IMG/VR virus record: IMGVR_UViG_3300012984_000014
Coordinates: 52,462-116,461 of that record
Strand: one strand, 5' to 3'
DNA: 64,000 nt
From: a virus
Part shown: one piece after another, positions 32,735-45,808 of the stretch
How positions within the stretch are numbered: the stretch's first letter is position 1
How the letters are laid out: every line of letters starts with the position of its first letter
Notes under the pieces: generated by a model
Told to the model about the DNA's origin: nothing
Database searches by the model: none
The model's input: only the letters and a program-made list of their open reading frames with translations
Position numbers and translations under genes: made by a program

Positions 32735-32806
32735 ATCCACAAAGTTGAGAAAAAGAACGGCGCTACCAAAAAAGTTCTCGACTTGTGGAAGCAGAAGCCT
32801 TATGGT
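32735..32806 (+). promoter_or_regulatory. phage promoter module P5 with operator arms
   Basis: ATCCACAA at 32735-32742 faces TTGTGGAA at 32783-32790. CTCGAC is at 32777-32782, followed by an 18-base spacer and TATGGT at 32801-32806. The predicted start of transcription is about 32813. A small hairpin (GGCGG/CCGCC at 32829-32842) and a GAAGGAG site follow before the ATG at 32860. Confidence 0.75.
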
Positions 32807-32859
32807 CTCTCCTGTCGCCGAACGAACCGGCGGGAAGCCGCCCCGAAGGAGAGAAGACG

Positions 32860-33201
32860 ATGGAAAAAGCCGAAAAAGTGGTAGAAGCCGTGAAGTTTGC
32901 CCCGTTCCAGTCGACCGATTGGATGGGTTACGCCGGGTGCGAGGCGTTTCCGGACGGCTCCGAGCCGATTATTGGCTACCTCGAAGTGGACGGGAACCTC
33001 GCGGTGGCGATTCTCGACGGAATCGGCCTCGGGGTCCACGTGGAAGTTCCGACGGGTGACGACGAAGAGATGCACGAGGAGACGGAAACGGAGGAGTATT
33101 ACTGGGACGGGCCCGCGGCCGGAGGGCGCGCCCTCGCGTTCCTTCGCCCGGAGATGGCCTCCGGAGATCTACTCGCCCTAAACCCCACGGTGAAGCCGTG
33201 A
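32860..33201 (+). CDS. hypothetical acidic protein
   Basis: A 113-residue acidic protein. The start is ATG 32860, set by GAAGGAG nine bases upstream; the frame is open further upstream through the promoter. It reads as beta-rich with an acidic loop (TGDDEEMHEETETEEYYW). GTGA/ATGA-type coupling joins it to the next gene. Acidic small early proteins are often host-enzyme mimics, but nothing specific is seen. Confidence 0.6.
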   Translation: MEKAEKVVEAVKFAPFQSTDWMGYAGCEAFPDGSEPIIGYLEVDGNLAVAILDGIGLGVHVEVPTGDDEEMHEETETEEYYWDGPAAGGRALAFLRPEMASGDLLALNPTVKP

Positions 33202-33572
33202 GCGCGAAGAAAGCGGTTTCCCATTCGTGGGAGGATTCGCGAACGGTCGTTTTCTCGGCGCGCGCTACCACCCACAGCCGGGCGTTCTCCGGCTCCGCTC
33301 GCCTAGTCGCCTACACGGGAAGCGACCCCAAGATCGGAGGGGCCGCGCTCGTTTCGTTCGTCGAGCCGGAGGCCAAATCGGCCGTCCAGCTGATGTGCTC
33401 CTACTCGGGAGGGGTCGCGGAAGCGGTCCTAGTCGCGGCCGGCCTCCGGAAGACGCTGAAGCTCGCCCCGATCTCGGCCGCGTACGCGGACCTAGGCGGG
33501 CCGGTCGGAATCGCAGAGGATTCGCTACGGGACGGGACGGGAGTCTTCAAGATCGTCTTCTATCGGCGCTAG
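33198..33572 (+). CDS. hypothetical protein
   Basis: A 124-residue protein with a GTG start, coupled to the previous gene. It reads as alpha/beta with Gly/Ala/Val-rich strands (GGAALVSFVEP and GGVAEAVLVAAGL). No known family. It is the second gene of the P5 unit. Confidence 0.55.
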   Translation: MSAKKAVSHSWEDSRTVVFSARATTHSRAFSGSARLVAYTGSDPKIGGAALVSFVEPEAKSAVQLMCSYSGGVAEAVLVAAGLRKTLKLAPISAAYADLGGPVGIAEDSLRDGTGVFKIVFYRR

Positions 33573-33652
33573 CCACAATCTTCCACCAACTACAAAAAAG
33601 ATTGGTGGAAGGCAAAAAAGTTCTCGATTTGTGGAAGCAGAAGCCGTACTTA
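33573..33652 (+). promoter_or_regulatory. phage promoter module P6 with operator arms
   Basis: CCACAA and TTCCACC (33573-33587) face TTGTGGAA at 33629-33636. AAAAAAGATTGG and AAAAAAGTT are 21 bases apart. CTCGAT is at 33623-33628 (the only module ending in T), the spacer is 18 bases and the hexamer is TACTTA at 33647-33652. The ATG at 33659 falls at the predicted transcription start. Confidence 0.72.
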
Positions 33653-33658
33653 TAGGGC

Positions 33659-33817
33659 ATGGACGCCGAAACCCGCCGAGCCCCCGAAGAAACCGGAACC
33701 GACTCCACGCCCGTCGCGATGGGAACGATCGGCTTCGATTGGTACCTAGCGGCCATCGGCTTCTCGCCCGAGGCGCTTCGCGCGGCTCGCGTCCCCTCCT
33801 TCCAAGAAAGCCTCTGA
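33659..33817 (+). CDS. 52-residue protein, predicted leaderless
   Basis: A short frame from the ATG seven bases after the P6 hexamer to TGA 33815-33817. The N-terminus is acidic and polar (DAETRRAPEETGTDS), then a helix-turn-helix-sized hydrophobic part (FDWYLAAIGFSPEALRAA). The next gene starts one base after its stop. Function unknown. Confidence 0.55.
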   Translation: MDAETRRAPEETGTDSTPVAMGTIGFDWYLAAIGFSPEALRAARVPSFQESL

Positions 33818-33818
33818 A

Positions 33819-34034
33819 ATGACCACCGACACCCTCCTAGTCCAAGCGATCAAGGACTCTCTCCACCTCCGCGTTCGGAAGCACCTAGAGATCTGGAAAA
33901 CGGTCAGCGCGCGCTACCCGGATGTGGCCTATGAGCGCTTCGACCGGATGATGGGGAAGCTCGAAATGGACGAAGTCATCACTTTGACCGGTTCGCGCGG
34001 CCCGAACGCCTACAAACTCCAAGGAGAAGCGTGA
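33819..34034 (+). CDS. small winged-helix-like protein
   Basis: A 71-residue protein. The helices (LLVQAIKDSLHL, then VAYERFDRMMGKLEMDEVITLTGSRG) and a C-terminal strand pattern resemble a minimal winged helix. It is second in the P6 unit. A transcription or replication regulator is possible, but the assignment is by shape only. Confidence 0.5.
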   Translation: MTTDTLLVQAIKDSLHLRVRKHLEIWKTVSARYPDVAYERFDRMMGKLEMDEVITLTGSRGPNAYKLQGEA

Positions 34035-34360
34035 AAATGGCCTCTATTAGCGATCTAGCTAGCTCGGAAGTCACTCGGCTCGTGGCCGATAACTTCAAAA
34101 AGACCCAGCGCGGCCCTCGCCCTGCCGGCGCTCCCTTCGTGGACGTCGCCTTCATCCCCGGGCGAAAGAAGGCCGTCCTAGTCCTCGTCAACGGAGAGGG
34201 CGCGGACGAGTACAGGCGCGGGAAGACTTTCGCCGCGACCCTAACCACGAAAGGCTGGAAGCCGCTCCCGGCGATGAACGCGCTTTCCGGAAAGAAGATC
34301 TACACGGACGCGGAAGCGGCCGAGGCCGTTCGCGCCCTCTTCGCGGCGGTCGAACGATGA
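34031..34360 (+). CDS. hypothetical protein
   Basis: A 109-residue protein. GTG 34031 overlaps the previous stop and has AAGGAG five bases upstream; ATG 34037 is the alternative. The middle has strands FVDVAFIPGRKKAVLVLV and a C-terminal helix. No known family. Confidence 0.5.
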   Translation: MKMASISDLASSEVTRLVADNFKKTQRGPRPAGAPFVDVAFIPGRKKAVLVLVNGEGADEYRRGKTFAATLTTKGWKPLPAMNALSGKKIYTDAEAAEAVRALFAAVER

Positions 34361-34566
34361 GCGCGCGGTTCGTAGGCGTTAAGCGCACGAGAAGCCACGT
34401 AGGCGCGCCGCTACCGCCCCACATGGCCCACGCTCCGACGCTCTCCAAGGGCGCGCGGAAGGGCGCTCCGGAGCCGGCTAGCGCGCTCCTTCCGGACGGA
34501 ACGGAAGGCCCGAAGGAGGGCGAAGACTTCGTGGAATGGTTCCTCCGGCGCGAAGGCGCCAAATAA
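34357..34566 (+). CDS. small basic hypothetical protein
   Basis: A 69-residue protein, mainly Pro/Ala/Lys-rich and probably disordered, with an acidic-aromatic end (GEDFVEWFLRREGAK). ATGA-coupled to the previous gene and last in the P6 unit. Confidence 0.45.
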   Translation: MSARFVGVKRTRSHVGAPLPPHMAHAPTLSKGARKGAPEPASALLPDGTEGPKEGEDFVEWFLRREGAK

Positions 34567-34637
34567 TCCACAGTTTCCAAAAAAGATTGGGACGCTACAA
34601 AAAAGTTCTCGACTTGTGGAAGCATCGGGCCTATACC
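34566..34637 (+). promoter_or_regulatory. phage promoter module P7 with operator arms
   Basis: ATCCACAG near 34566-34573 faces TTGTGGAA at 34614-34621. Two A6-G-(A/T)-T tracts are 21 bases apart. CTCGAC is at 34608-34613, the spacer 18 bases, and TATACC at 34632-34637. The ATG at 34646 lies two bases after the predicted start. Confidence 0.75.
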
Positions 34638-34645
34638 TACTTTCG

Positions 34646-34780
34646 ATGAAGAACACGACCAACCCGAAGCTAACCGCCCTCCGAATCCAAGCGCGCACCG
34701 CCCTCCGATTGGCCCAAAAGGCCCAAATGGCCGAACTCAATGCGAAAGCCGCCAAAAACGAGAAAGGTTCCAGCAAATGA
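34646..34780 (+). CDS. 44-residue basic peptide, predicted leaderless
   Basis: A short Lys/Ala/Arg-rich helical peptide directly after the P7 hexamer, ending at TGA 34778-34780 and ATGA-coupled to the gene after it. It may act as a leader or be a small helical protein. There is no ribosome binding site, as expected for a leaderless start. Confidence 0.5.
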   Translation: MKNTTNPKLTALRIQARTALRLAQKAQMAELNAKAAKNEKGSSK

Positions 34781-35226
34781 CCCTCCCGATCCAGACCCTA
34801 AACGCCATCGACTCCATCGCCTCTAGCGCTATCGCCACCGAAGTCCTCATCAAGCGCGCGCGCCAAGGGCGCTTCCGCTTCTATGGGTGGGAATACGCCA
34901 CCGCGAAGGTCACCCGCGTCACTAAAGCTCGCATTTTCGTCAAGGGAACGTGGGAAGGGGCAAGCGAGCGCGAGTTCAACCGCTCGGACCTCATCGAACG
35001 ATCCGGAGAAAAGTTCAACCGCGCAGAGCTCATCGTCGACCCCGAGCTCATCGCGAAAGCGCGCGCCGAAGAGGCGGCCGAGAAGGCCCGTCGAGCCCTC
35101 GAACAAAATGGTCTAGTCGCCCTCCTAGGCATCCGGAAGCTCTTCGACGAAGACGCCATCAAGGGCCGCTCGGACGGAGAGATACAGGCCCTTATCGCGG
35201 CCGCGGCCGACCTAGGTGTCCTGTGA
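34777..35226 (+). CDS. hypothetical protein
   Basis: A 149-residue protein. An N-terminal helix precedes a beta-rich part (FRFYGWEYATAKVTRVTKARIFVKG). Then comes a charged helix (KARAEEAAEKARRALEQ) and a compact C-terminal helical end. The layout is like a small KOW/SH3-type domain plus coil. No family assigned. Confidence 0.5.
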   Translation: MTLPIQTLNAIDSIASSAIATEVLIKRARQGRFRFYGWEYATAKVTRVTKARIFVKGTWEGASEREFNRSDLIERSGEKFNRAELIVDPELIAKARAEEAAEKARRALEQNGLVALLGIRKLFDEDAIKGRSDGEIQALIAAAADLGVL

Positions 35227-35450
35227 AGCTCATCCCGGTCGGGAACGTCCGGAAGGGCGACCGCCTACGCGCCTCCGACGAGTCGAAAGAGCTTAAAACC
35301 GTGGCATACGTCGCCAACGCGCGCGTATCCGGCTACAAAGTGGCGGTATTCGAGGACGGCTCCCAGCGGGCGCTCGGGCACCGGACGGGGTTTGCCACAG
35401 TCTACCCGGCCGAGCCCGTCGCGGAATCTCCACAAAACCTACACAAGTAG
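35223..35450 (+). CDS. small beta-rich hypothetical protein
   Basis: A 75-residue protein with a GTG start overlapping the previous stop. It reads KLIPVGNVRKGDRLRASDE then strands VAYVANARVSGYKVAVFEDG, like a small beta-barrel. It is the last gene of the P7 unit. Confidence 0.5.
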   Translation: MKLIPVGNVRKGDRLRASDESKELKTVAYVANARVSGYKVAVFEDGSQRALGHRTGFATVYPAEPVAESPQNLHK

Positions 35451-35510
35451 GTATAAAAGTTCCACACCTCCAAAAAAGTTCTCGACTTGTGGAAGCAGCG
35501 GACGTATACC
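35430..35510 (+). promoter_or_regulatory. phage promoter module P8 with operator arms
   Basis: Left arms TCCACAA (35431) and TTCCACA (35460) face TTGTGGAA at 35487-35494. CTCGAC is at 35481-35486, with an 18-base spacer and TATACC at 35505-35510. The ATG at 35518 is one base after the predicted start. The left arm at 35431 overlaps the end of the previous gene. Confidence 0.75.
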
Positions 35511-35517: not shown

Positions 35518-35736
35518 ATGGACAACACCACCGCCACCGAGTCGACCGAAACCGCCACCGCTCGCGCCCAAGGCATCGCCATCGCCAACGACCGTTGCTG
35601 GACGAAAGACCAGCTAATCGCGATGGCCACCTACGGATTCAAGGGCTCGACGGGCTACCCGGAGGGCTCCGACCTCCACTTTGTGGTCCTCTGCGCCGCG
35701 AACGACGAAGCCAAGCGCCTTACGGCCGGTTTCTGA
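35518..35736 (+). CDS. small hypothetical protein, predicted leaderless
   Basis: A 72-residue protein. A Thr/Ala-rich N-terminus (MDNTTATESTETATARA) precedes a compact part (WTKDQLIAMATYGFKGSTG). Its position after P8 matches that of the 36.5-kb gene after P9. The two share the MD(N/I)TT start only. Confidence 0.55.
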   Translation: MDNTTATESTETATARAQGIAIANDRCWTKDQLIAMATYGFKGSTGYPEGSDLHFVVLCAANDEAKRLTAGF

Positions 35737-35808
35737 AAGCCGCCTGCCGCGCCGATTCGCCTCCGCGCCTCCCGGCCCGGGGGCTTTCGGCGTTAGGAGA
35801 CCACATAA
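35737..35808 (+). other. intercistronic leader with stem-forming repeat
   Basis: GAAAGCC (35735-35741) can pair with GGCTTTC (35782-35788). The block TCGCCTCCGCGCC (35757-35769) and GGCTTTCGGCGTTAG (35782-35796) recurs exactly 1000 bp downstream. It precedes an AGGAG site and ATG 35809. Confidence 0.55.
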
Positions 35809-36237
35809 ATGTCCAAATATAGCGTCCGCTACGTCCACAAGATCGCGCCCTCCACGAACGACACAGGCCCGGACGTCGAGATCCCCAACGGGGCGTTCTC
35901 GGACTCGAAGACCCTAGCGTCCGTCCTACGCGCGGCCGGCGTACTCGCCTCTGGCGCGCGGGTGGCTACGTTCCGCGTAGAGGGCGATAAAACCATCGTC
36001 TTCCCGTTCCTTCCCGGTTCCACCACCTATTGGCACGCGGTGATTCTAGGCCCAGTAGCGGTCCAGGAATCGCCCAAGGCCTCGATCACTCCAGAATTCG
36101 AGAATCAGTGCCTTTCGATCGGTCGGGAGTTCCTTCCCGCGGTCGCCATCCAGGTATTGGAAAACGGCGGCACGAATTCGCCCGAGGAACAGGCCGAATA
36201 CGAGGCTTGGCTCCGCTCCCAATTGGAGGCGTCGTGA
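35809..36237 (+). CDS. hypothetical protein
   Basis: A 142-residue protein with a TAGGAGACC site ten bases upstream. The first half is beta-rich (VRYVHKIAPST, then VATFRVEGDKTIVFPF), and the second half is helical with an acidic end. GTGA-coupled to the next gene. No family recognised. Confidence 0.55.
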   Translation: MSKYSVRYVHKIAPSTNDTGPDVEIPNGAFSDSKTLASVLRAAGVLASGARVATFRVEGDKTIVFPFLPGSTTYWHAVILGPVAVQESPKASITPEFENQCLSIGREFLPAVAIQVLENGGTNSPEEQAEYEAWLRSQLEAS

Positions 36238-36419
36238 AACGCCTCCTGGGCATTACGGTCGCCCGGGCCATCGTCTCGGGCGACGTCGATCGGGCGAGGC
36301 GGGAAGCGGGCGGAAGGCGCTCGTGGACCGTTCCCGAGGCGCGCGCGATTGTCGGCGCGTGTCGAGCGGCTCGCGCTCGCTTCCCGGGGTGCGCCGTCGA
36401 TTCACGCGAGTTCTTTTAG
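36234..36419 (+). CDS. small Arg/Ala-rich hypothetical protein
   Basis: A 61-residue basic protein with a GTG start overlapping the previous stop. A helix with ARAIV repeats (VARAIVSGDVDRARREAGG then EARAIVGACRAARARF) suggests a duplicated helical unit. Last gene of the P8 unit. Confidence 0.45.
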   Translation: MKRLLGITVARAIVSGDVDRARREAGGRRSWTVPEARAIVGACRAARARFPGCAVDSREFF

Positions 36420-36428: not shown

Positions 36429-36499
36429 TCCACAAAGTAGATATAATCGACCGCGCCTACAAAAAAAGTCTCGACTTGTGGAAGCAACGGCCGTATACC
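36429..36499 (+). promoter_or_regulatory. phage promoter module P9 with operator arms
   Basis: TTCCACAA (36429-36436) faces TTGTGGAA at 36476-36483. CTCGAC is at 36470-36475 (within AGTCTCGAC, one T shorter than most copies), the spacer is 18 bases and TATACC lies at 36494-36499. The ATG at 36507 is one base after the predicted start. Confidence 0.75.
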
Positions 36500-36506: not shown

Positions 36507-36740
36507 ATGGACATCACGACCCACACCGACGCAAACGAGAACCGCAAGATCGTCATCGACCTCGCGGATGGCATCCACCTCGAATACAGCCCGGAGACGG
36601 AACCGCGCTGCGTCGAGGTCATCGACGGGAAGATCTTCACGACGACTCAAGAGGCCGCAGAGGAGCTAGCCTCCGAGATGCGCGCCTGGGGCGTAAAGCC
36701 GGCGCGCCCCCTCGGCTTCGCGGTCGTCTTCTGGGGCTAA
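36507..36740 (+). CDS. small acidic hypothetical protein, predicted leaderless
   Basis: A 77-residue acidic protein right after P9. The strands IVIDLADGIHLEY and CVEVIDGKIFTTT with a following helix (EAAEELASEMRAWG) suggest a small alpha/beta fold. No family recognised. Confidence 0.55.
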   Translation: MDITTHTDANENRKIVIDLADGIHLEYSPETEPRCVEVIDGKIFTTTQEAAEELASEMRAWGVKPARPLGFAVVFWG

Positions 36741-36796
36741 CGCGCTCCGCTCCCGCTCGCCTCCGCGCCCTAGGGTCTGGAGGCTTTCGGCGTTAG
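36737..36796 (+). other. intercistronic leader stem-loop (copy of the 35.8-kb leader)
   Basis: CTAACGC (36737-36743) can pair with GCGTTAG (36790-36796). TCGCCTCCGCGCC (36757-36769) and GGCTTTCGGCGTTAG (36782-36796) repeat the leader exactly 1000 bp upstream. Four bases separate the repeat from the ATG of the next gene, so no normal ribosome binding site is present unless the repeat supplies it. Confidence 0.55.
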
Positions 36797-36800
36797 AACC

Positions 36801-37160
36801 ATGAAAAACCTCATCCTCGCCATCCTCGCCATCCTCGCCCTCGTCATCCTCGTTTCGGCCAGCCCGGCCCAGGCACGAGCGACTAGCTACGAAAGCGCCA
36901 TCGCTTCCGCCCACGCCTCCGGCGCGTGCTACGTCGTCCAGACCTCTTTCGGCTGGGTCGTCGTCCAGGAATGCGACGACGAACGCGAGCAATCGCTCCC
37001 GGATAGCCATATTCTGATGTCTTGGGCCGATTCCCCGTGCGCGTTAGCCGGTGAAGAGGCGCTCGCCTCCGAGGTCGATGGCGAGGAATTCGACTTTGAC
37101 TCCACCTATGAATGGGCTTTCGACGCTTGCGAGCGCGATACGGCCTTGGATTGCCAGTAA
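36801..37160 (+). CDS. secreted small protein with signal peptide
   Basis: A 119-residue protein. Residues 1-26 are a classic signal peptide (MKNLILAILAILALVILVSA), with a likely AQA cleavage site near residue 26. The mature part is acidic and has four Cys residues (CYVVQ, CDDE, CALAG, CERD, CQ), which may form disulfides in the periplasm. No family recognised. It is second in the P9 unit. Confidence 0.65.
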   Translation: MKNLILAILAILALVILVSASPAQARATSYESAIASAHASGACYVVQTSFGWVVVQECDDEREQSLPDSHILMSWADSPCALAGEEALASEVDGEEFDFDSTYEWAFDACERDTALDCQ

Positions 37161-37175
37161 TTGGAAGGCAGACAG

Positions 37176-37400
37176 ATGAATAAGCCAAGAATGACCAAGA
37201 AGACGCGCCATTTCCTCGAATTCGTCCGGGAGAACCCGGGCCTCAACGCGCTCCGGATCCACCGCGCGATTGGCCACCTCTACACGCGGAACGGTCACCA
37301 GTTCACCTACGCAACGCTCAAGCGAATGGTAAAAAACGGCCTCGCTACGCGCGGCCCGTCGGCGAACGGCCGCGGATTCGGCATCCACCCCGTCGGCTAG
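37176..37400 (+). CDS. small winged-helix DNA-binding-like protein
   Basis: A 74-residue basic protein. ATG 37176 follows a GGAAGG site; TTG 37161 is an upstream alternative. The pattern KTRHFLEFVRENPG, then ALRIHRAIGHLYTRNG, then ATLKRMVKNGLATR is that of a winged helix. It may be a small transcription regulator of the accessory region. Last gene of the P9 unit. Confidence 0.6.
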   Translation: MNKPRMTKKTRHFLEFVRENPGLNALRIHRAIGHLYTRNGHQFTYATLKRMVKNGLATRGPSANGRGFGIHPVG

Positions 37401-37407: not shown

Positions 37408-37480
37408 TCTACAAAGTTCGTCAAAAAGATTGGTCGAGAGCAAAAAAGTTCTCGACGTGTGGAAGCAGAAGGATTAGGTT
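37408..37480 (+). promoter_or_regulatory. phage promoter module P10
   Basis: A weak left arm (TCTACAAAG near 37408) faces TGTGGAA at 37458-37464. CAAAAAGATTGG and CAAAAAAGTT repeat as in other copies. CTCGAC is at 37451-37456, with an 18-base spacer and TAGGTT at 37475-37480. The predicted transcript starts about 37487, directly at a hairpin. Confidence 0.73.
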
Positions 37481-37527: not shown

Positions 37528-37953
37528 ATGGAAAAGCTCGAAACCAAAAAAGCCCTCCTCCTCGCCCTCGCCTCCGCCCTTACCGCGCTCGGATGGAGCG
37601 CGACGATTGAACCGCTTCTTCAAATCCTCCGCGTTCCCGGCTTCCCGGCGCTCCGGACCCCGGAAGTCCGTTTCTCCGGCGCGCCGTCGAGTCCAGACGT
37701 GCGCTTCGTTTGGCACGGATACACCGCCAAGAAGCCGGAAACGATGGCCGCGCGCATCGCGGAAGTCCTAAAAAAGGAGGCGGACGCGCAGAAGGAAGCC
37801 GAGGCCAAGCGGACCACGCCGATCCACCTAACGGCCGCGGAACGCGAGGCTTTGGAAGCGCTCGTACAGACGCGGATCGCCTCGCTTCCCGCTTCTTGGC
37901 CCGCTCGGGCCGCGTTGGAGAACGTTCTAGCCAAGCTCGGGGTGGCGTCGTGA
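37528..37953 (+). CDS. hypothetical helical protein
   Basis: A 141-residue protein starting at ATG 37528. A helical N-terminus (KKALLLALASALTALGW) could be amphipathic. A variable middle and a charged C-terminal helix (AAEREALEALVQTRI) follow. GTGA-coupled to the next gene. No family. Confidence 0.5.
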   Translation: MEKLETKKALLLALASALTALGWSATIEPLLQILRVPGFPALRTPEVRFSGAPSSPDVRFVWHGYTAKKPETMAARIAEVLKKEADAQKEAEAKRTTPIHLTAAEREALEALVQTRIASLPASWPARAALENVLAKLGVAS

Positions 37954-38219
37954 GCGATTCCAACAAACTCCCAAGGAATAAGCGCCTTCAGGAGATTCAC
38001 CGCCTCAATCCCCCGAATCCCGTGGCAGAATTCGACAAGAATAAGGCGCGCGCGCTCTCGAAAGTGGCGCACGAGCAGGTATCGGGCCCGCTCCTTTGGG
38101 CTTCCGAGGCAAATTCCAAGAAGGAGCTCCTAGACCAGCTAGAAGCGGCTGAAACGGCGCTAGAGCTCCTCTACGAGTCTGTAAAAAGCTTTCGGCGCGA
38201 CGTCCGGAGGGGCGAATGA
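37950..38219 (+). CDS. small charged hypothetical protein
   Basis: An 89-residue charged protein with a GTG start on the previous stop. A C-terminal helix (KELLDQLEAAETALELLYESV) is probably coiled-coil. No family. Confidence 0.5.
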   Translation: MSDSNKLPRNKRLQEIHRLNPPNPVAEFDKNKARALSKVAHEQVSGPLLWASEANSKKELLDQLEAAETALELLYESVKSFRRDVRRGE

Positions 38220-38365
38220 GCCCCGTAAAGGCAGCGCTAGCGGCGCTCCGCCAGCACGATGGCGACGTCGACAAGGCGACCGCGGAAACCGGCCTCCTTC
38301 GCTCCTTCGTGGCCGACATCGCCCGGCAATTCGCGGACTACCTCCGCCCTCGGACGGCAAAATGA
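38216..38365 (+). CDS. 49-residue helical protein
   Basis: A short ATGA-coupled frame ending at TGA 38363-38365. It reads as a helix-turn-helix-sized helical peptide (AALAALRQHDGDVDKATAET, then LRSFVADIARQF), similar to small DNA-binding helices. Supported by coupling on both sides and a plausible composition. Confidence 0.45.
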   Translation: MSPVKAALAALRQHDGDVDKATAETGLLRSFVADIARQFADYLRPRTAK

Positions 38366-38502
38366 GCGCGCGTATCGTTTCCGCGGCGGACGATTGGCAC
38401 ACCGCCTACATCGGCGCGCGCCGAATCGGCGACTATTCCACTTGGGAGCGCGCTCGCGAGGCGCTCCGCCGACAAGGGTGGTTCGTGGAGGACGGAAAGT
38501 GA
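38362..38502 (+). CDS. 46-residue hypothetical protein
   Basis: A short frame coupled at both ends (ATGA and GTGA overlaps). It contains three Trp residues and a basic helix (WERAREALRRQGW). Function unknown; the coupling is the main support. Confidence 0.45.
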   Translation: MSARIVSAADDWHTAYIGARRIGDYSTWERAREALRRQGWFVEDGK

Positions 38503-38783
38503 AGCCGATTCTCCTTCGGCTCGCCTACCTCCTTGGGAGAAAGGTCGGGAAACTCTCCCGGAAGCGCCAGGAGCGCGCTCGCCGGAGACTCGAAGCGGGC
38601 AGAAACACGAACGGCGCGCTGCCCGCCTTCGTCTTCTCTGGGTGCGTAACGGCCCGAGAACGCCACGAGCCAATATCTATTGCATTCGACTCCCAAGAGG
38701 CGACGATCGCTGACGTAATCGACATCCTAGAGCGAGGAACGCCCAAGGTTAAGCCGCGAAGACGCAGGAGGACCGCGCAATGA
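38499..38783 (+). CDS. small basic hypothetical protein
   Basis: A 94-residue protein with a GTG start overlapping the previous stop. A short hydrophobic start (KPILLRLAYLLGRK) is followed by a strongly basic region (SRKRQERARRRLE), and the C-terminus is again Arg-rich. Probably nucleic-acid- or membrane-associated. ATGA-coupled to the next gene. Confidence 0.5.
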   Translation: MKPILLRLAYLLGRKVGKLSRKRQERARRRLEAGRNTNGALPAFVFSGCVTARERHEPISIAFDSQEATIADVIDILERGTPKVKPRRRRRTAQ

Positions 38784-38947
38784 GCCGAGCAAAGGCCGTG
38801 GAGACGCTCCGGAAGAGGCGCGACCGAGCGCTAAGGGCGCTGAAGTCCCAACGACGGACGGCGAAACCGAGCGAACTAGCCGCCATCGCCGAGAAAGAAG
38901 CGACGATCCAGCGCGCTTACGAGTCCGAGCGCTGGATCTTAGGGTGA
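38780..38947 (+). CDS. 55-residue basic helical protein
   Basis: A short ATGA-coupled frame ending at TGA 38945-38947. It is a continuous Arg/Lys/Glu-rich helix, likely a coiled coil. Support comes from coupling and amino-acid pattern. Confidence 0.45.
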   Translation: MSRAKAVETLRKRRDRALRALKSQRRTAKPSELAAIAEKEATIQRAYESERWILG

Positions 38948-38959
38948 AAAGAGGGCAAA

Positions 38960-39229
38960 ATGTCCAACAATTGGTGCAAAGAGTGTGAGCATTTAGCCAT
39001 CCCGTGCGCGGCCTGCGAGGAGAAGGCCTCCAAAGAGCGGCTCGAACGTCTCGAACGGATCAAAACGCCCATAGCCGCCAGCCTTCCAGGCCGCGCCACC
39101 CATTTCGAGCACACCCCAGGGAAGCTCGCTTGTGGCCTCGTAAGCTCCTCCGCGCTCCGAACGTCCGAGTTTCCAAGAGTTGATTGCAATAGCTGCCGAA
39201 GACGCGCCCTAGCGCGCCGTTTCGTCTAG
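38960..39229 (+). CDS. small zinc-finger hypothetical protein
   Basis: An 89-residue protein preceded by a GAGGG site. CKEC, CAAC and later CNSC form a likely zinc-binding pair, separated by a basic helix. Its stop overlaps a GGGTAATTGGGTTA element at 39229. It is the last gene before the long non-coding region. Confidence 0.55.
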   Translation: MSNNWCKECEHLAIPCAACEEKASKERLERLERIKTPIAASLPGRATHFEHTPGKLACGLVSSSALRTSEFPRVDCNSCRRRALARRFV

Positions 39230-39309: not shown

Positions 39310-39344
39310 AAGCCGGAAGGAGCCTAACCCGCCCTTTCCGGCTT
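39310..39344 (+). terminator. putative rho-independent-like terminator
   Basis: AAGCCGGAA (39310-39318) pairs with TTCCGGCTT (39336-39344) as a 9-bp stem, followed by TTCC. The loop is 17 bases, longer than usual, and the U-run is short. It lies 80 bases after the last gene of the P10 unit and before the non-coding region. Confidence 0.45.
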
Positions 39345-40122
39345 TCCTGCGTTCCGCTGTGCCCTTCTGCGCGCTTTCGCGCTTCCCGCAGCCCGTCCTC
39401 CACGCCGCCCTCCGGAAGCGCGTTTAAGCGCCTCCTAGCGTCTCCGCGCTCCAACGGCCGATGAGAATCGACCGAGCGCTTGAGCGCTCGCCTCCAGAAA
39501 GCCAACGCCTTGTGCCTAAACGGCCCGTTACGGCGTTTTCGCATCGTCTCATGGACGAGAGTGTGCGGAGCCCGCCGAGACGATTCTTGCCATCGTTCTG
39601 TGCCAAAACGCCCTAAGCGCCCAAATTCGCCCTTTCGCCGATTCCCATCGTTCCGCCGCTCCGCGCCTCCTCGTCCACCCAACCCCTTGGAAGAATCACC
39701 ACCAGAACCGAACGAACCGAGATAGCCTCCGCCGTTCTACGCTGCCCGCCGTTTGCGCGTACGTGTGTTCTTTTACGCTCTCGAACGCCTCCGGAGCGCT
39801 TCGTTGTTCCGCTTTCGAAGGCTCGGAATTGACCAAATCTCGGCTCCGGAAACCCCGTGGATTGTCCGGCACACACATCCTGCAGGCACGCCTTGGCCAT
39901 CCCGGTCCATGGTGCATCCACCTGCCAAACGCCACCATTTTGTGGGTAAGCGGAGGTCGCCTGGATGGAGAATTTGTGGCGTTTCTCGGCTCCCGAGGGT
40001 AAGTCAAGTTACACAGAGAGGGTAATTGGGGTGGAATTGCCGATTGTGTACGTATCGTGGACAACGGTCACGTACGGACCTGAAATGGCCCTGGGAAAAC
40101 TTCTGGCTCCCCAGCGCGTACG

Positions 40123-40397
40123 TAACTCTATTACCCTATTAGGAGGATTGCAATAGTAATATCCATAAGATAATGCATATATCGAGTAACCCTATTACCC
40201 TATGTAACTCTATTACCCTATTAGAGTAGGGCCGACAGCACCTCGGCAAGAAGAGCCTATTAGGGTAATTGGGTTACAGTGGAATGGTAAGAGCGTTACA
40301 TCGAGTCGGCCGCTCGTCTAACCCAATTACCCTAGGGTAAGAGCGTTACGCCTAACCCTATTACCCTATAGCTATACAGTGTAACCCTATTACCCTA
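40123..40397. repeat. iteron-like cluster of TAACCC(T/A)ATTACCCTA
   Basis: Seven copies lie at 40123, 40187, 40205, 40262 (reverse), 40319, 40353 and 40382. Each is a 16-base element built from two TNACCC blocks 8 bases apart. Between them GGTAAGAGCGTTAC occurs twice, at 40286 and 40336. An AT-rich tract (40150-40190) lies among the first copies. The arrangement is that of a replication origin or a multi-site operator. Confidence 0.75.
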
Positions 40398-40466
40398 GCG
40401 CCTAGCGTACGCTATCGTGGATGGTCTATGGTGTCGTGCCTACCTACCTACCACCCACACACCACG

Positions 40467-40480
40467 TATATAGCTATATA
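40467..40480. repeat. 14-bp perfect palindrome
   Basis: TATATAGCTATATA is a perfect inverted repeat in the non-coding region, between the iteron cluster and promoter P11. It could be an operator or a site of local melting. Confidence 0.5.
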
Positions 40481-40669
40481 GTGTCCAAATTGCCTACGAA
40501 ACTGGACAACATGGCTTGATTAGCCACGCCTACCCACCCCACTGTGGATGTTTTCTGGAAAAACCCCCGTGCGGCGCCCATGTCTGGGCGGCTCGGAATG
40601 CACACGCCGCTCGGACACCCCAATGCACATCCACAAAACGAACTTTCTTTCCATAGCGTTGACTTTTCG

Positions 40670-40699
40670 CTCGACGCCCTCCCGCGCATCCACTATACC
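40670..40699 (+). promoter_or_regulatory. phage promoter module P11 (divergent copy)
   Basis: CTCGAC at 40670-40675, an 18-base spacer, and TATACC at 40694-40699. The A-tract and TGTGGAAGCA are absent, and TTGACT (40659-40664) overlaps upstream, so the classification is weaker than for the other modules. ATG 40711 lies five bases after the predicted start. Confidence 0.6.
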
Positions 40700-40710: not shown

Positions 40711-40908
40711 ATGACAACCGAACAACTCGAAGAACGCCAAGCACTCGCGGACGACATCGCGACCTCCTCCAAAGCAATCACCATCGCTCTGGAGTGCGCG
40801 GTTTCGTGCGAGACGGAAACCGACTTCATCGCCAACCTCGAAGACGCCGAGGCCCAGCTGGTGGACATGCTCCGTGAAGTCCGCGAGCTGAAGGCCACCC
40901 GTGGCTGA
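40711..40908 (+). CDS. small helical hypothetical protein
   Basis: A 65-residue acidic, helical protein (ALADDIATSSKAITIALECA, then DFIANLEDAEAQLVDMLREV), probably a helical hairpin or coiled coil. It follows P11 with almost no leader and overlaps the next gene by 8 bases. Function unknown. Confidence 0.55.
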   Translation: MTTEQLEERQALADDIATSSKAITIALECAVSCETETDFIANLEDAEAQLVDMLREVRELKATRG

Positions 40909-41137
40909 CGCAAAAAAGTACTGGAACGACAGTGCGCAACTCGCAAACTTCGCCGCTCGCATCCGACGCGAGTGGGGGCCGTGTTGGCACATAATGGTGC
41001 CCGCAATACGCGCGGCTGTCGTGGACCAATTCACTCTTGGCGTAATCCGTAGCCAAGAGCGAGAGAGCGTGCCCATGGCCGCAATCGACGAATTGGCACA
41101 GGCGATGCACGCCGCTATGGGAACAGAAAACGCCTGA
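40901..41137 (+). CDS. small hypothetical protein
   Basis: A 78-residue helical protein with a GTG start inside the end of the previous gene. It has an aromatic-basic N-terminal part (YWNDSAQLANFAARIRREWG) and a helical rest. No family recognised. Confidence 0.5.
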   Translation: MADAKKYWNDSAQLANFAARIRREWGPCWHIMVPAIRAAVVDQFTLGVIRSQERESVPMAAIDELAQAMHAAMGTENA

Positions 41138-41252
41138 TCAGCCAAGAAGGCGCAAACCCAGTAAACACATTTCACCAGACAGTCGTCCTATCGCGCCCCG
41201 GCGACGCGCACCACGCCCGGGACGCTCCACTCATTCGAGGAACAGCAACAAC

Positions 41253-41489
41253 ATGCCAGCCCGGAAAGCAACGCAACCACGGGACGCACCCCAGTTCGCA
41301 AAACAGCAACAACGACTAAATGCCGCCGTTCTCGAACGGGCACGCGGAAACGAGCAGGTGGCTCGCATCGAGTTGGCAGGCGCAAAGCGTCGCCTCCTCC
41401 TGGCGGCCGACGAATACGCGCGGAAGCAAGACCAAGCCGACCGATGCACCGCTGAACTTCGAATGCTCGAAGCCAGATACAAGAAGTGA
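41253..41489 (+). CDS. small coiled-coil protein
   Basis: A 78-residue charged helix throughout (QFAKQQQRLNAAVLERARG to MLEARYKK), likely a coiled coil. The start is set by an AGGA about 11 bases upstream, which is weak. It follows a 115-base gap without other signals. Confidence 0.45.
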   Translation: MPARKATQPRDAPQFAKQQQRLNAAVLERARGNEQVARIELAGAKRRLLLAADEYARKQDQADRCTAELRMLEARYKK

Positions 41490-41520
41490 ACGACCGACCA
41501 TTTGCAGCCTGGAGAGCAAC

Positions 41521-41733
41521 GTGGAACCAAAACCAGCAATGAACCCGAAAGTAAAGAGCAAACCGACGCCCGCGCCGAAGCCGCCGCCGCCGGACCCGCA
41601 CGAGGTGGCCGCCAAGGCGCTGACCGACGTCATCGGCATCCTCGGGCAACTCAACGATGACGACCGCGAGCGCGTTCTGAAGAGCGCGCAGGCCTACTTC
41701 TCTCCCCTCGCGAAAAAGGAATGGGAACGGTGA
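41521..41733 (+). CDS. small hypothetical protein with Pro-rich start
   Basis: A 70-residue protein. GTG 41521 has a GGAGAG site six bases upstream; ATG 41539 is an alternative. Lys/Pro-rich residues lead to a helical end (VAAKALTDVIGILGQL, then ERVLKSAQAYF). Coupled to the next gene (GTGA). Confidence 0.5.
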   Translation: MEPKPAMNPKVKSKPTPAPKPPPPDPHEVAAKALTDVIGILGQLNDDDRERVLKSAQAYFSPLAKKEWER

Positions 41734-41984
41734 GACACAGCGGCGCCATCCTCAAGAAGAACGTTCGGAGCATCACGCTTCGGTACGTCACGAAGCCCGG
41801 CAGCGCGGGCACGACACTTCACTACACGACGCTTCCACGAGCCCAGAAGGCGGCGAAGAGCAAGGTCGGATCTCGGCCGCGTCAGGACCCGGACGGGTAC
41901 TTGGTCGGGCCGGACGGCTGCTGCTTGTTCTTCAAAGGCGCGACGCTCGAAGAGCTCTTTCCAACCAAACAGGAAAACCAATGA
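41730..41984 (+). CDS. small basic hypothetical protein
   Basis: An 84-residue basic protein. GTG 41730 overlaps the previous stop and is preferred over the in-frame ATG 41721, which would extend the overlap. The strands SITLRYVTKPGSAGTTLHYT suggest a small beta fold. ATGA-coupled to the next gene. Confidence 0.5.
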   Translation: MRHSGAILKKNVRSITLRYVTKPGSAGTTLHYTTLPRAQKAAKSKVGSRPRQDPDGYLVGPDGCCLFFKGATLEELFPTKQENQ

Positions 41985-42430
41985 CCAAGCCAACTCATAA
42001 GCCACCGCCAGCACAGAAGTTCTCCAAGCCCCGTACGCCCATCACGCAATCCGGCGTCGATGCACTCCTGGACCAAGCCGTGGAGAATGGCTACCAAGAC
42101 GAGATCACACGCCAGGACCCCCGCTCGGTGGCTTGGGACATGCAGCGCTATTCGCCAGAGTGCGAGAACGAACCGACGGCGCGCCTGGTTCTCTTCATCG
42201 AAGACTGGCAGAAGCGCCATGTGCCCGCTTCTGAGACGCCCATCGCCGACGCTCTGCGATACTTGTCGGCGCTCGCCCTTGAGAAGGACCAAGGCCTAAA
42301 AACCAGCCAAGCCATCCACGTTTTGGAAGTGGCTCTGGAAGGCGAGCTTGGCGCTGAAGAACGCGCGGCGCACCCAATGCTCGACGTCTCCGTGGCCAAG
42401 GAACTTCGCAAGCACGTGAAGGAGTTCTGA
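41981..42430 (+). CDS. hypothetical helical protein
   Basis: A 149-residue protein, Lys/Pro-rich at the start and helical and acidic after that. No motif recognised. ATGA-coupled to the previous gene. Confidence 0.5.
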   Translation: MTKPTHKPPPAQKFSKPRTPITQSGVDALLDQAVENGYQDEITRQDPRSVAWDMQRYSPECENEPTARLVLFIEDWQKRHVPASETPIADALRYLSALALEKDQGLKTSQAIHVLEVALEGELGAEERAAHPMLDVSVAKELRKHVKEF

Positions 42431-42433
42431 GCC

Positions 42434-42685
42434 GTGCACCAGTTCACCGGAAAGTACACGGTCAAGTTCGAATTCCGCGTGCCGGGCGAGCCAACGTTCA
42501 AGCGTTGGATGGGTGACTTTGCCAGCGCGGATCCGAAGCACGCACGCAATTTAGTGACGGGGCAACTCAACATGCTGGGCTACGAAGTTGGAGCGCTCGC
42601 CGTGTACGACGGCGAATGGCTCGTGCTCGGCAACATCCTCCCGTTCGTGCCGGGCGAGCTTGTCCGGCTTCCGACCATCCACTGA
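42434..42685 (+). CDS. small beta-rich hypothetical protein
   Basis: An 83-residue protein with a GTG start. Strands YTVKFEFRVPGEP and GALAVYDGEWLVLG suggest a compact alpha/beta fold. No known family. The gap to the next gene is 7 bases. Confidence 0.5.
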   Translation: MHQFTGKYTVKFEFRVPGEPTFKRWMGDFASADPKHARNLVTGQLNMLGYEVGALAVYDGEWLVLGNILPFVPGELVRLPTIH

Positions 42686-42692
42686 GGCAAAT

Positions 42693-42953
42693 ATGGCAAT
42701 CACAGTCGACAAGGACGGCATCCCGACGAATCGACCACAGGTCACGTTCGTCGGAATTCGTGCGACCAACGTGTTCTTCATCCTCGGCGCGTGCCGGCGC
42801 GCCGCAATGAAAGAGGGCTGGACGACGGCACAATGGGCGCTACTCCGGGAGAAGTTCTTGGAGTTGGATCGAAGTGACGACCAAGGCGAGGCCGCGATGG
42901 CGTTGGCAACCCGATACTTCACCGTTCAAATCAACAACGCGGAGATAGGCTGA
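42693..42953 (+). CDS. small hypothetical protein
   Basis: An 86-residue protein. The strand-helix pattern (VTFVGIRATNVFFILGACRR) then helices (EGWTTAQWALLREKFL) reads as alpha/beta. The next ATG overlaps its stop (TGATG). Confidence 0.5.
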   Translation: MAITVDKDGIPTNRPQVTFVGIRATNVFFILGACRRAAMKEGWTTAQWALLREKFLELDRSDDQGEAAMALATRYFTVQINNAEIG

Positions 42954-43246
42954 TGGACCGGCTCACGCCGTTCGATCTCTACTCGACCGCCGAATTTGTG
43001 GCCGATAGCATCAAGCGCAAATTCGCAGGCAGCGCATCCCGGCGCTTGCAGGTGCAAATCTGCGAGAAGATCATCCTGCCGCTCGCGACCGACGAGGAGC
43101 TGCGGCGCGGGCTCGCCGCCGTCATCGGGCACGCGCGCGACGGGATCGAAACCATGCACACCGTCAACCACACGGAGCCAGGGAGCTCGCCGGAAGAGAA
43201 GGCGTTGATCTGGCTCCAAAAGCTGATTGGGGCGGCTCCGCTATGA
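42953..43246 (+). CDS. small helical hypothetical protein
   Basis: A 97-residue mostly helical protein (FVADSIKRKFAGSASRRLQV, then DEELRRGLAAVIGHARDG). It starts on the last base of the previous stop and is ATGA-coupled to the next. No family. Confidence 0.5.
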   Translation: MDRLTPFDLYSTAEFVADSIKRKFAGSASRRLQVQICEKIILPLATDEELRRGLAAVIGHARDGIETMHTVNHTEPGSSPEEKALIWLQKLIGAAPL

Positions 43247-43428
43247 ACGAGGAACAGAAGGCGCGCCTCCAGGAAGTCCGTGATGACGCGGAACGTGCTT
43301 ACAGGCGCGAGGACGACGAAGACGAACGGCGCGCACTTCGAATCAAGGTGGAAACGCTCGAAGCAGTCGCCTTTATCTTCGGCGTGGAACTGGACCACTT
43401 TGATCCGTACCCGACGAGGCGCGGGTGA
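43243..43428 (+). CDS. small charged hypothetical protein
   Basis: A 61-residue highly charged helix (RLQEVRDDAERAYRREDDED) with a short hydrophobic end. ATGA- and GTGA-coupled on its two sides. Function unknown. Confidence 0.5.
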   Translation: MNEEQKARLQEVRDDAERAYRREDDEDERRALRIKVETLEAVAFIFGVELDHFDPYPTRRG

Positions 43429-43592
43429 AACTCTCGCTCGCCTTCCGGCAAGCCGCGTGGTTGTGGTACGCCAAGGCCCAGATTCGACGCGACGGCGTTT
43501 GGATTTCACGGCCACCGGTGTTCGAAGAAGGCGAGTGGCAATCCATTCAGCTCAAGCAAGGCATCCAACCTAGTTACCCTGAGGCAAGATGA
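43425..43592 (+). CDS. 55-residue basic hypothetical protein
   Basis: A short GTG-started frame coupled on both sides, ending at TGA 43590-43592. Aromatic and basic (WLWYAKAQIRRDGVWISR). The DNA near its end contains AACCTAGTTACCCTG, close to the regulatory element seen elsewhere. Confidence 0.45.
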   Translation: MKLSLAFRQAAWLWYAKAQIRRDGVWISRPPVFEEGEWQSIQLKQGIQPSYPEAR

Positions 43593-43720
43593 ATTTTGAA
43601 AAGGCATCGCGAATTGTGGGGCTGATCGCATACATGCTCGCTGGAATGTTTGTAGCGCGCATGTATGACGATTGTCGCCGTTCGCGCCAATGTCCGCATC
43701 CAATCACGGTTTGCAAATGA
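43589..43720 (+). CDS. 43-residue membrane peptide
   Basis: A short ATGA-coupled frame ending at TGA 43718-43720. Residues 8-25 form one hydrophobic segment (IVGLIAYMLAGMFVA), followed by a basic Cys-containing tail. Probably an inner-membrane peptide. Confidence 0.5.
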   Translation: MNFEKASRIVGLIAYMLAGMFVARMYDDCRRSRQCPHPITVCK

Positions 43721-44070
43721 AAGACACGCTGATCGTCACCCAGCGCATGGGAGACACGAGCCGTTTTCGAATCCAGTGGGCTTTCTCGGACGGCGAGCTT
43801 GGTGGATATCTTGGACAGGACAAGAACGACGGAGGAGAAGAGCCGCCCGAAGACAGAGACGCTTGGGAGCATTGGGCGGCCAGCAAGGCGGTGATGGGCC
43901 TTCCGGGCTCCGACCGGGATGACACGAGCACGTTTTGGGAGACAGAGGCCGGGGCGCGCGTCGCGCTCCGTCTCGCGAAGGCAGCTCTGAAACAAGCGAA
44001 GCCGTTGCCCGATTGGGCGAAGACGGCGTTGGCGGAGGGCTGGAAGCCTCCGAAGGGATGGAAGGCGTGA
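43717..44070 (+). CDS. hypothetical protein
   Basis: A 117-residue protein with ATG 43717 on the previous stop. A beta-rich first half (TLIVTQRMGDTSRFRIQW) is followed by an acidic loop (GGEEPPEDRD) and helices. No family. Confidence 0.5.
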   Translation: MKDTLIVTQRMGDTSRFRIQWAFSDGELGGYLGQDKNDGGEEPPEDRDAWEHWAASKAVMGLPGSDRDDTSTFWETEAGARVALRLAKAALKQAKPLPDWAKTALAEGWKPPKGWKA

Positions 44071-44441
44071 CTGAAAAACTTCGTTTGGCGCGGTCCATGC
44101 GGGTGAACGGCTTGAATTTCACTTGGACCAAAGAGGACTACTCCAACGACTTTTGGCAGTTGAAAGCCACGATGGGCTTGGCTGTTATAACTATCTGGCC
44201 AGATGCGAATGTTGGTTTTGACGCCGATGATGGAGCTTGGATCGCAAGCCGATGGTGCGCCAGCTATTCGCCGCTCAGCCCTGGGTGCGAAGTAACTGTG
44301 CATGGAAGGACACCTGAAACAGCGGTTGCCAACCTGATCAAGCAACTCCGAAAACTCGCGCACGACATAAACGAATCCACAGGGAGGCTGATCGCTCGTA
44401 TCAAGAGCGAAAAAGCGTCCAAGAAAGCGAAGGCATCTTGA
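44067..44441 (+). CDS. hypothetical protein with basic tail
   Basis: A 124-residue protein with a GTG start overlapping the previous stop. The middle is aromatic and beta-rich (NGLNFTWTKEDY, then GLAVITIWPDA), and the C-terminus is Lys-rich (RIKSEKASKKAKAS). No family. TTGA-coupled to the next gene. Confidence 0.5.
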   Translation: MTEKLRLARSMRVNGLNFTWTKEDYSNDFWQLKATMGLAVITIWPDANVGFDADDGAWIASRWCASYSPLSPGCEVTVHGRTPETAVANLIKQLRKLAHDINESTGRLIARIKSEKASKKAKAS

Positions 44442-44923
44442 CTGGCAAACGCAACGTCCGCCCGCGCTACGCGCCGCTGAAGGTCGGCACGGAGATCCGC
44501 CTGGTGAAGGAGGAGAAGTCGAAGGTGCGCGACCTCGATGGCGGCGTGGCTGAATACATCCGCTTTCGTGCGGGGACGACCGGCCGCATCACCGTACCGA
44601 AGCTGCCCAACGGCAACGTCGTGGTTGATATCTTCTTGGTCGACAAGGGCACGAAGGGCTACGAGATCACGCGCTCGAACGTCCGAGCCCTCCCCAGGCA
44701 GAAGAAGCCGTTGGGCAACTGCGTTCCCAAGGGCTTCGACCTCCTCAGCCCGGCCGAACGACTCTCCATGAAGCCGATGGCGGCCAAGAGTCTCGCAACG
44801 TCACTCGCCAACCAACGGCGAGCGAAGCGGGCGATGTTGGCGGCAATCCAGCACTACGCCGATTGCACGGCGAACGTCTCGCACAACCGTCGGCTTGCCA
44901 ACATCGAGTCGGGCCTGACGTGA
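44438..44923 (+). CDS. hypothetical protein, SH3/KOW-like start
   Basis: A 161-residue basic protein with a TTG start. The N-terminal half (VGTEIRLVKEEKSKVRDLDG, then RAGTTGRITVPKLPNGNVVV) resembles a small KOW-type barrel, and the C-terminal half is helical and basic. Possibly RNA- or DNA-binding. GTGA-coupled to the next gene. Confidence 0.5.
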   Translation: MTGKRNVRPRYAPLKVGTEIRLVKEEKSKVRDLDGGVAEYIRFRAGTTGRITVPKLPNGNVVVDIFLVDKGTKGYEITRSNVRALPRQKKPLGNCVPKGFDLLSPAERLSMKPMAAKSLATSLANQRRAKRAMLAAIQHYADCTANVSHNRRLANIESGLT

Positions 44924-45237
44924 TCAACCCCAGCGGCCCTCCAAGCCAATCGTTGCCTCCGCACATCGCGCTCGGGACCCTTCTCCTGGAGGTGAAGATG
45001 GTGTCGTTGACGTTCAATGGGATTGTCGTCACGGCGGACGTCGCCGACCGTGACAACCAGTATTGCACGACGACCATCACGGCCAACTTCGCGCGCTTAC
45101 CTATGGAAGATGACGCGGACCTTCTTCGGCGCGGGTTGAAGATCTTGGTCTGTCACGAGGTGGACGAGCAGATCAAGTGCAACGGCTTTCGGGTCTTCGA
45201 CCCGCACAACCCGGCCAACGTGGAAAGGCACTACTGA
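44920..45237 (+). CDS. hypothetical beta-rich protein
   Basis: A 105-residue frame from GTG 44920, which overlaps the previous stop. A stronger ribosome binding site (GGAGGTGAAG) directly precedes the in-frame ATG 44998, so the real product may be only 79 residues. The body is beta-rich (VSLTFNGIVVTADV). No family. Confidence 0.5.
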   Translation: MINPSGPPSQSLPPHIALGTLLLEVKMVSLTFNGIVVTADVADRDNQYCTTTITANFARLPMEDDADLLRRGLKILVCHEVDEQIKCNGFRVFDPHNPANVERHY

Positions 45238-45593
45238 TGAAGATGATGCCGGGCCAGACGCCCTACACGCCGGAGGAGCTGAATCGCCTCCAGGCGCTCG
45301 TTGGCTCGGCCATCGTGGCCGTGGAAGAGTTTGGCGAAGACGAGTTGGAATATTACACAGAAAGGAAGAAGAGATTGGAAGCAGCAAAGAGCAACTTGCC
45401 CCCGGTCGACCTCGTGGGGTGCGAAAAGAGCGTGTATGCCGTGATGGCTCGCGTCCGCGCGGCCGCTACGCGCGCGGGGTGGAACGCGCAACGCATCGGA
45501 GACTTCCGCGGGAAGCTCTTCACGGCCAACAATAACGAGGGCTACGAGGCCGCGATGAAGCTGGTGGCGACCGAATTCCAGGTGAAGTCGTGA
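45237..45593 (+). CDS. hypothetical helical protein
   Basis: A 118-residue protein beginning on the previous stop (TGATG). It has helical pieces (ELNRLQALVGSAIVAVEEFG and VYAVMARVRAAATRAGW) and no recognised motif. GTGA-coupled to the next gene. Confidence 0.5.
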   Translation: MKMMPGQTPYTPEELNRLQALVGSAIVAVEEFGEDELEYYTERKKRLEAAKSNLPPVDLVGCEKSVYAVMARVRAAATRAGWNAQRIGDFRGKLFTANNNEGYEAAMKLVATEFQVKS

Positions 45594-45808
45594 GCCAGGA
45601 GGCGCAAGCCTTCCCCGGCGAGCCGACCCCGAGCGAGCGGATCGCCATCGCGACGGCGCGCGTTGCACGAAGGAAGCAGGAGCTGGACAATGCCGTGGCC
45701 GAGTACGCCCTGGCCTGCCAAACGCTCGCCGTTGCCATCGAGCGCGCAGATCGCTTCCACGAGGCTCAGACCAACCCGGCGAACGAGAAGCCCGACGATC
45801 CAGCCTAA
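45590..45808 (+). CDS. small helical hypothetical protein
   Basis: A 72-residue acidic helix (ERIAIATARVARRKQELDNA, then EYALACQTLAVAIERAD), likely a coiled coil. Last gene before promoter P12. Confidence 0.5.
   Translation: MSQEAQAFPGEPTPSERIAIATARVARRKQELDNAVAEYALACQTLAVAIERADRFHEAQTNPANEKPDDPA

Follow-up and report, generated by a model that had tools for sequence, protein, structure and literature searches.

What do forty tiny genes, crowded into about 13 kb of a phage genome, have in common, and how are they switched on? This question is raised by positions 32735-45808 (the tract) of a 64,000-nucleotide stretch of viral DNA (the window), which comprises bases 52462-116461 of a 116,461-base IMG/VR phage contig (G000). 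With moderate confidence, we explain the locus as a whole as a hypervariable accessory tract, in which the genes of the left half form promoter cassettes under a shared module, a compact element repeated in front of each cassette, and which has host-directed products.

The contig belongs to a tailed phage that has not been cultured and in which no integrase was detected, and the tract lies between its replication and packaging genes. A terminase, a portal protein and a DNA polymerase III-type polymerase were recognized, while a search for an integrase in the whole contig, a tRNA scan and an Rfam scan yielded no hits. The terminase has an identity of only 26-29% to the best matches listed from 50,697 phage records, therefore there is no near isolate, and no description of this phage family was found in the titles and abstracts shown by a literature search, which left most subscription journals outside its coverage. 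The contig seems to be close to a full circle, because one protein of the relative G013 matches both the right end of the window and the left end of the contig. Fourteen relatives were compared, as whole contigs (G002, G004, G006, G007, G009, G013, G021, G024) or partial contigs (G001, G008, G011, G012, G015, G026), and the first 11 searched were all but G021, G024 and G026. The terminase identities to the window phage are 73% for G021, 72% for G013, 69% for G002, 68% for G024, and 67% for G004. Many of the contigs are fragments, and therefore absence in the relatives is not always proof.

The open reading frames of the tract are, as a set, real genes. The curated annotation contains 40 genes of 43-161 amino acids, all on the plus strand (with t07 starting at 34646 and t36 at 44067), and 20 of the 39 curated junctions are 4-base overlaps and two are 1-base overlaps. 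An automatic gene caller predicted 39 genes (37 on the plus strand) with 80% coding sequence and 15 four-base overlaps, compared to means of 11.6 genes, 15% coding sequence and 0.07 four-base overlaps in 30 dinucleotide shuffles. It is this excess in gene number and coding share over the shuffles that establishes the set as genes, and the third-position GC content exceeds that of the first and second positions in nearly all of them. Short lengths and missing family matches would fit the view that most of these small reading frames are not genes. However, codon score, coverage and 4-base overlaps are all far above the shuffles, the homologues in G013 are arranged in the same order, and the start codon of t13 is conserved, so that this view is strongly disfavoured.

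A first-pass annotation of the window had described about 40 genes of 43-149 residues, packed by 4-base overlaps, nearly all without a recognizable family, and varying from acidic to very basic. Number, packing and the lower size limit were borne out, but the upper limit was too low, as t37 has 161 residues. Family matches are indeed scarce: none of the 40 proteins has a Pfam match above the cut-off, and only two (t30 and t39) have PHROGs matches, both to phrog_1933, a family of unknown function for which a search of 11 relatives had no hit. The isoelectric points range from 4.1 to 11.9, and many proteins are strongly basic. The proposed winged-helix (t15) and zinc (t22) proteins remain weak calls. 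The predicted structure of t15 has three helices with a predicted local distance difference test (pLDDT) score of 60, and a PDB sequence search with t15 had no result; a CxxC motif in t22 and a signal-peptide-like start in t14 were noted by visual inspection only. For t13 the predicted structure has a pLDDT of 51, and both models fall short of the quality that a fold search needs. A profile search with t13 against the PDB aligned it with designed repeat proteins over about 28 residues, which was taken as chance. In IMG/VR t13 has relatives only in G013 and t28 has none; t13 and t39, the only two tract proteins searched against the 50,697 phage records, had no match there.

The comparison with the relatives points to a hypervariable accessory region, in agreement with the first-pass annotation, and to a conserved flanking core. 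Five of the 40 curated proteins have a homologue in any of the 14 relatives, far from a conservation of every gene, and the accessory status is upheld because most core genes do have homologues: in the 11 relatives homologues were found for 5 of 39 called tract genes versus 19 of 27 genes of the left core and 13 of 15 packaging genes. Small size is not the cause of the missing homologues, because small core genes are found; among genes of up to 149 amino acids the values are 5/37 for the tract, 7/9 for the left core and 3/3 for the packaging genes. Four of the five, t01 (33% identity), t12 (45%), t13 (66%) and t20 (40%), have their homologues in G013, where the gene order is kept and a module directly precedes the homologues of t01 and t13. 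The homologue of t12 is also syntenic, as is a weak homologue of t10 (E 0.04). The fifth, t35, is the only right-half gene with homologues in relatives (G002 and G015). In G021, G024 and G026 none of the 40 tract proteins was found, though core genes were.

An alignment of nine strong copies of the module reveals a left arm TCCACA, two A-tracts, a -35 hexamer TCGAC(T/G), a spacer of 17 bases containing TGTGGAAGC, and a TA-rich -10 hexamer. The hexamers are 17 bp apart in all nine copies, the left arm, TCCAC(A/C), lies about 42 nt ahead of the -35 hexamer in seven, and the right arm TGTGGA is found inside the spacer in eight. Together the arms form an operator-like inverted repeat, TCCACA...TTGTGGA, the right arm of which sits in the promoter spacer, and TGGAAG within the spacer is also conserved. 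A search with the 25-base core, allowing up to three mismatches, found eight sites in the window versus none expected, and a matrix scan added two sites at 20055 and 45848. All 10 matrix hits fall within 20-46 kb, and neither method found a module in the remaining 52 kb of the contig. The strong modules occupy gene gaps and are oriented toward the downstream gene. Six of them, at 32.8, 33.6, 34.6, 35.5, 36.5 and 37.5 kb, head 22 genes of the tract, while the 18 genes of the right half have one degenerate module at 40.65 kb. Therefore, the claim of one promoter per cassette in the first-pass annotation holds for 32.7-39.2 kb, but not for the right half. Strong modules are also present outside the tract, at 20.06, 22.27 and 23.22 kb, so that the unit is wider than the tract as it had been delimited, and a further module at 45.85 kb, past the tract end, faces the next gene (Table 1). 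As single queries, the genes behind two of these outer modules, g026 and gene 46525, yielded no matches; an alignment of four g026 sequences did find matches.

Table 1. Modules, cassettes and repeat block in the window (positions in the window; aa, amino acids; distances to the start codon are counted from the -10 hexamer).
Feature	Position	Strand	Remarks
Module before core gene g026	20017..20087	+	start codon 7 nt past -10
Module	22232..22302	+	start codon 6 nt past -10
Module	23183..23253	+	46-nt leader
Promoter module P5 (putative)	32736..32806	+	TCCACA left arm, A-tracts, -35 TCGACT, 17-bp spacer with TTGTGGA, -10 TATGGT
Cassette 1: t01-t02 (113, 124 aa)	32860..33572	+	53-nt leader, good Shine-Dalgarno
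Promoter module P6 (putative)	33582..33652	+	-10 TACTTA, start codon 6 nt on
Cassette 2: t03-t06 (52, 71, 109, 69 aa)	33659..34566	+	first gene predicted leaderless
Promoter module P7 (putative)	34567..34637	+	-10 TATACC, start codon 8 nt on
Cassette 3: t07-t09 (44, 149, 75 aa)	34646..35450	+	first gene predicted leaderless
Promoter module P8 (putative)	35440..35510	+	-10 TATACC, start codon 7 nt on
Cassette 4: t10-t12 (72, 142, 61 aa)	35518..36419	+	
Promoter module P9 (putative)	36429..36499	+	-10 TATACC, start codon 7 nt on
Cassette 5: t13 (77 aa), t14 (119 aa), t15 (74 aa)	36507..37400	+	
Promoter module P10 (putative)	37410..37480	+	-10 TAGGTT, 47-nt leader
Cassette 6: t16-t22 (141, 89, 49, 46, 94, 55, 89 aa)	37528..39229	+	
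Non-coding repeat block dividing the tract	39230..40640	.	repeats of TAACCCTATTACCCTA
Degenerate module	40659..40699	+	TTGACT...TCGACG-17-TATACC, without TGGAAG, start codon 11 nt on
Right half: t23-t40 (18 genes, 43-161 aa)	40711..45808	+	
Weakened module past the tract	45817..45881	+	ahead of gene 45887-46525

The module appears to be a sigma70-type promoter, for which the window alone makes a modest case and which is mostly settled by the relatives. An exact 19-base version had no match in 2.9 million viral contigs, and a looser 26-base pattern was found in 29 stretches, with G013 (L138) among them. G013 contains seven modules, one of them in reverse orientation in front of a gene that is likewise encoded on the minus strand, with its start codon 7 nt past the -10 hexamer. 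G024 carries eight copies of a related module, with TTGACT in 8/8 and TATAAT at a distance of 17 bp in 6/8, and the promoter reading is strengthened because this TTGACT-17-TATAAT arrangement is near-canonical. Two modules are present in G002, with the paired arms TCCACCA/TGGTGGA and TCCACGA/TGGTGGA. Two other interpretations were rejected, a coding motif (KKVLDLWK), because a G013 copy has a stop codon in that frame, and a terminator, for which an AT-flanked hairpin is present in some G024 copies, but not in the window. G021 (L192) has another element of 79 bases, which occurs four times, contains A-tracts and in some copies includes a palindrome like CCCTGTCTACAGGG; this element is perhaps the module of that lineage. 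In G004 (L096, L097) AGGA(GA)ACCGGCCATG is repeated at gene starts and resembles start-associated sequences.

Within a genome the modules resemble one another. Computed over 37 bases, the mean identity is 0.75 in the window phage (36 pairs), 0.66 in G013 (21 pairs) and 0.87 in G024 (28 pairs), versus 0.49-0.60 for comparisons across genomes. An equivalent position does not raise the similarity, as modules that correspond in place between two genomes reach 0.35-0.59, where a one-base shift makes the value of one pair too low. The likeness could come from recombination or from a regulator that imposes a common selection, and segmental duplication may contribute, since the similarity of the segments around P8 and P9 extends past the module itself. 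This homogenization, together with the arms of the inverted repeat that are conserved in the window and in G002, would also be expected if the element were mainly a regulator-binding or recombination sequence, similar to a stoperator, and its promoter likeness incidental. We consider this very improbable, because the strong modules lie in gene gaps and face the downstream gene, including the reversed copy in G013, the distance from the -10 hexamer to the start codon is held tightly at 6-8 nt in many modules, and the hexamers of G024 are near-perfect.

Several observations weigh against cassettes that are driven early by host-type promoters and encode host-directed proteins. The hexamers TCGACT and TATACC of the window are poor matches to the consensus, and a scan of the tract with a stock sigma70 consensus found two sites versus 2.8 in shuffles. 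G004, with its 67% terminase identity, is without any such module, the inverted repeat is absent from the G013 modules, and the G024 spacer keeps only TGGAAGC. The right half does not follow the cassette layout, and known takeover or anti-defence effectors have no match among the tract proteins. Lastly, the phage carries its own sigma-like gene, and therefore the modules might not be early. The encoded protein of 353 amino acids, similar to Sigma70_r2, lies outside the window at positions 46412-47473 of the contig (L089 10513-11574), some 7 kb to the left of the gene for the DNA polymerase; G002, G004 and G015 have matches at the equivalent position. A weak sigma-like match is also present in G001, and the sigma factor encoded by G013 at 5266 is a different one. 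The modules would then be middle or late promoters read by the phage-encoded sigma factor, an alternative to which the presence of this gene, with its counterparts in relatives, and the conservation of TGGAAG in the spacer, which sigma70 does not require, lend some weight. We nevertheless regard it as unlikely, because the G024 copies are close to canonical sigma70 promoters, in G004 the sigma-like gene is present without any module, and the 353-amino-acid protein scores 22.4 on its own, under the curated Pfam cut-off of 24, and exceeds it in the genome search only (24.3).

For the first genes behind six of the nine strong modules in the window (20059, 22274, 33624, 34609, 35482, 36471) leaderless mRNAs are predicted, as the start codon follows the -10 hexamer after 6-8 nt (the distances for 20059 and 22274 were taken from the module alignment). 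The Shine-Dalgarno energies at these starts resemble those of random sites, while the remaining three modules have leaders of 46-53 nt, at least two of them with a clear Shine-Dalgarno sequence. Short distances are also found in five of the seven G013 modules (7, 7, 7, 7-8 and 10 nt) and in one of the two G002 modules, whereas the G024 copies displayed have Shine-Dalgarno leaders and none is of the leaderless type. The start codon of t13 is supported by the conservation of the N-terminus (MDIT) in G013 from the predicted leaderless ATG. The predicted leaderless starts also give a hint as to the type of host. The mRNA leader at 23252-23299 can fold so that its 5' end pairs with its own Shine-Dalgarno sequence and encloses a GC hairpin (z -4.96). 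The hairpins that follow t10 and t13 were discarded as a shared part, because z is about -5 in G013, but only -2.3 and -0.3 in the window.

The preferred reading of promoter cassettes leads to the following model. In the left half, each of the six copies of the compact module would start a polycistronic cassette of two to seven genes, with the upstream A-tract acting as an UP element. Host RNA polymerase would start all cassettes at once, presumably early, so that many small proteins would be made in parallel. A regulator bound at the inverted repeat would block or tune RNA polymerase, the right arm being in the spacer, and one phage regulator could thus switch all cassettes together. Leaderless translation is expected for first genes that begin at the predicted transcription start, and many later genes of the cassettes would be translationally coupled through their 4-base overlaps. 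Almost all of the gene content is exchanged from one relative to the next, while the layout recurs in several of them and the modules are kept alike in each genome. By analogy to known systems, host takeover or anti-defence is plausible and the likeliest role of the products.

The two halves of the tract are separated by a mostly non-coding gap of 1.48 kb (39230-40710), and its repeat block is a possible replication origin or partition site. A non-coding block with diverged but related repeats (TAGCCCTATTACGTCG) is present at the same place in G013 (20467-21613). If the block were an origin, the tract genes might serve DNA replication or segregation around it instead of being directed at the host, and the many strongly basic proteins would fit such a role, as would the retention of the block with its diverged unit in G013. 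However, replication genes are conserved in the relatives and the tract is not, and the block is only a candidate origin; we think this explanation rather improbable. A further non-coding block of 0.75 kb with degenerate 46-47-base tandem repeats precedes the tract (31985-32735). The GC skew is mostly negative across 34000-42000 and mostly positive elsewhere. Outside the tract, a stand-alone response-regulator receiver domain is encoded on the minus strand at 21223-21585 (PF00072, above the cut-off). The polymerase frames of G002, G003, G004 and G006 have 1556-1998 amino acids with the polymerase match split in two, which looks intein-like; the window copy is uninterrupted.

A more far-reaching idea, which we put forward tentatively and regard as doubtful, is that the modules are switches and swap points alike: recombination would keep the copies similar, a promoter plus its genes would be exchanged as a unit, and the genes directed at the host could be listed across the family by using each lineage's own module as a tag.

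Homology allows no annotation of anything in the tract. Candidate host-directed genes are nevertheless picked out, without the need for homology, by a promoter tag that is repeated in one genome and changes from lineage to lineage. In the window phage the candidate list comprises 22 to 40 proteins, and the same method is applicable to the relatives.

Comparable arrangements have been described for other systems, which are considered here on the basis of excerpts from the published reports. In cluster K mycobacteriophages repeated extended start-associated sequence (ESAS) elements hold sigma70-like promoters and inverted repeats; they are intergenic, 46-47 bp long, have hexamers 17-18 bp apart, and their consensus varies by subcluster (PMC3203893, PMC11373665). 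As far as described there, they share with the window module the principle of a repeated intergenic promoter with an imperfect inverted repeat in front of non-structural genes of differing families. However, ESAS elements are followed by a start-associated sequence of 13 bp, which contains a Shine-Dalgarno core and is located 3-9 bp ahead of the start codon, whereas most first genes in the window are of the leaderless type, and six of its nine modules leave only 6-8 nt between the -10 hexamer and the start codon, where no start-associated sequence of this kind is found. In addition, no sequence likeness is apparent by eye, and the window module has A-tracts and wider-spaced arms. A -10 box that precedes the start codon by 6-7 bp, in the absence of a Shine-Dalgarno sequence, is a feature shared with Deinococcus-Thermus, one of several phyla in which, according to the excerpts, leaderless genes with an adjacent -10 box are common (PMC12340547, PMC3160421). 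There it has been demonstrated by experiment as a host-wide habit, whereas in the window phage it is predicted, and for the first genes of the cassettes. With regard to gene content, the host-takeover module of the Bacillus phage SPO1 contains 26 mostly small genes on 12.4 kb in several operons with their own promoters, and early expression and toxicity were measured for these genes, the products of which hit host processes (PMC6873191). The clustering of small genes in several promoter-led operons is similar, here in the left half only, but the SPO1 module is located in a terminal region, while the window tract is internal. A parallel to the proposed tag is found in archaeal viruses, in which a shared early promoter sequence tags anti-defence genes, some of them functionally validated (PMC11065993). 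In the text available, one repeated promoter per virus likewise marks small, poorly conserved accessory genes, with flanks that differ between viruses. Those are TATA/BRE promoters of mostly single genes, in contrast to the predicted bacterial-type promoter and the polycistronic cassettes of the window phage.

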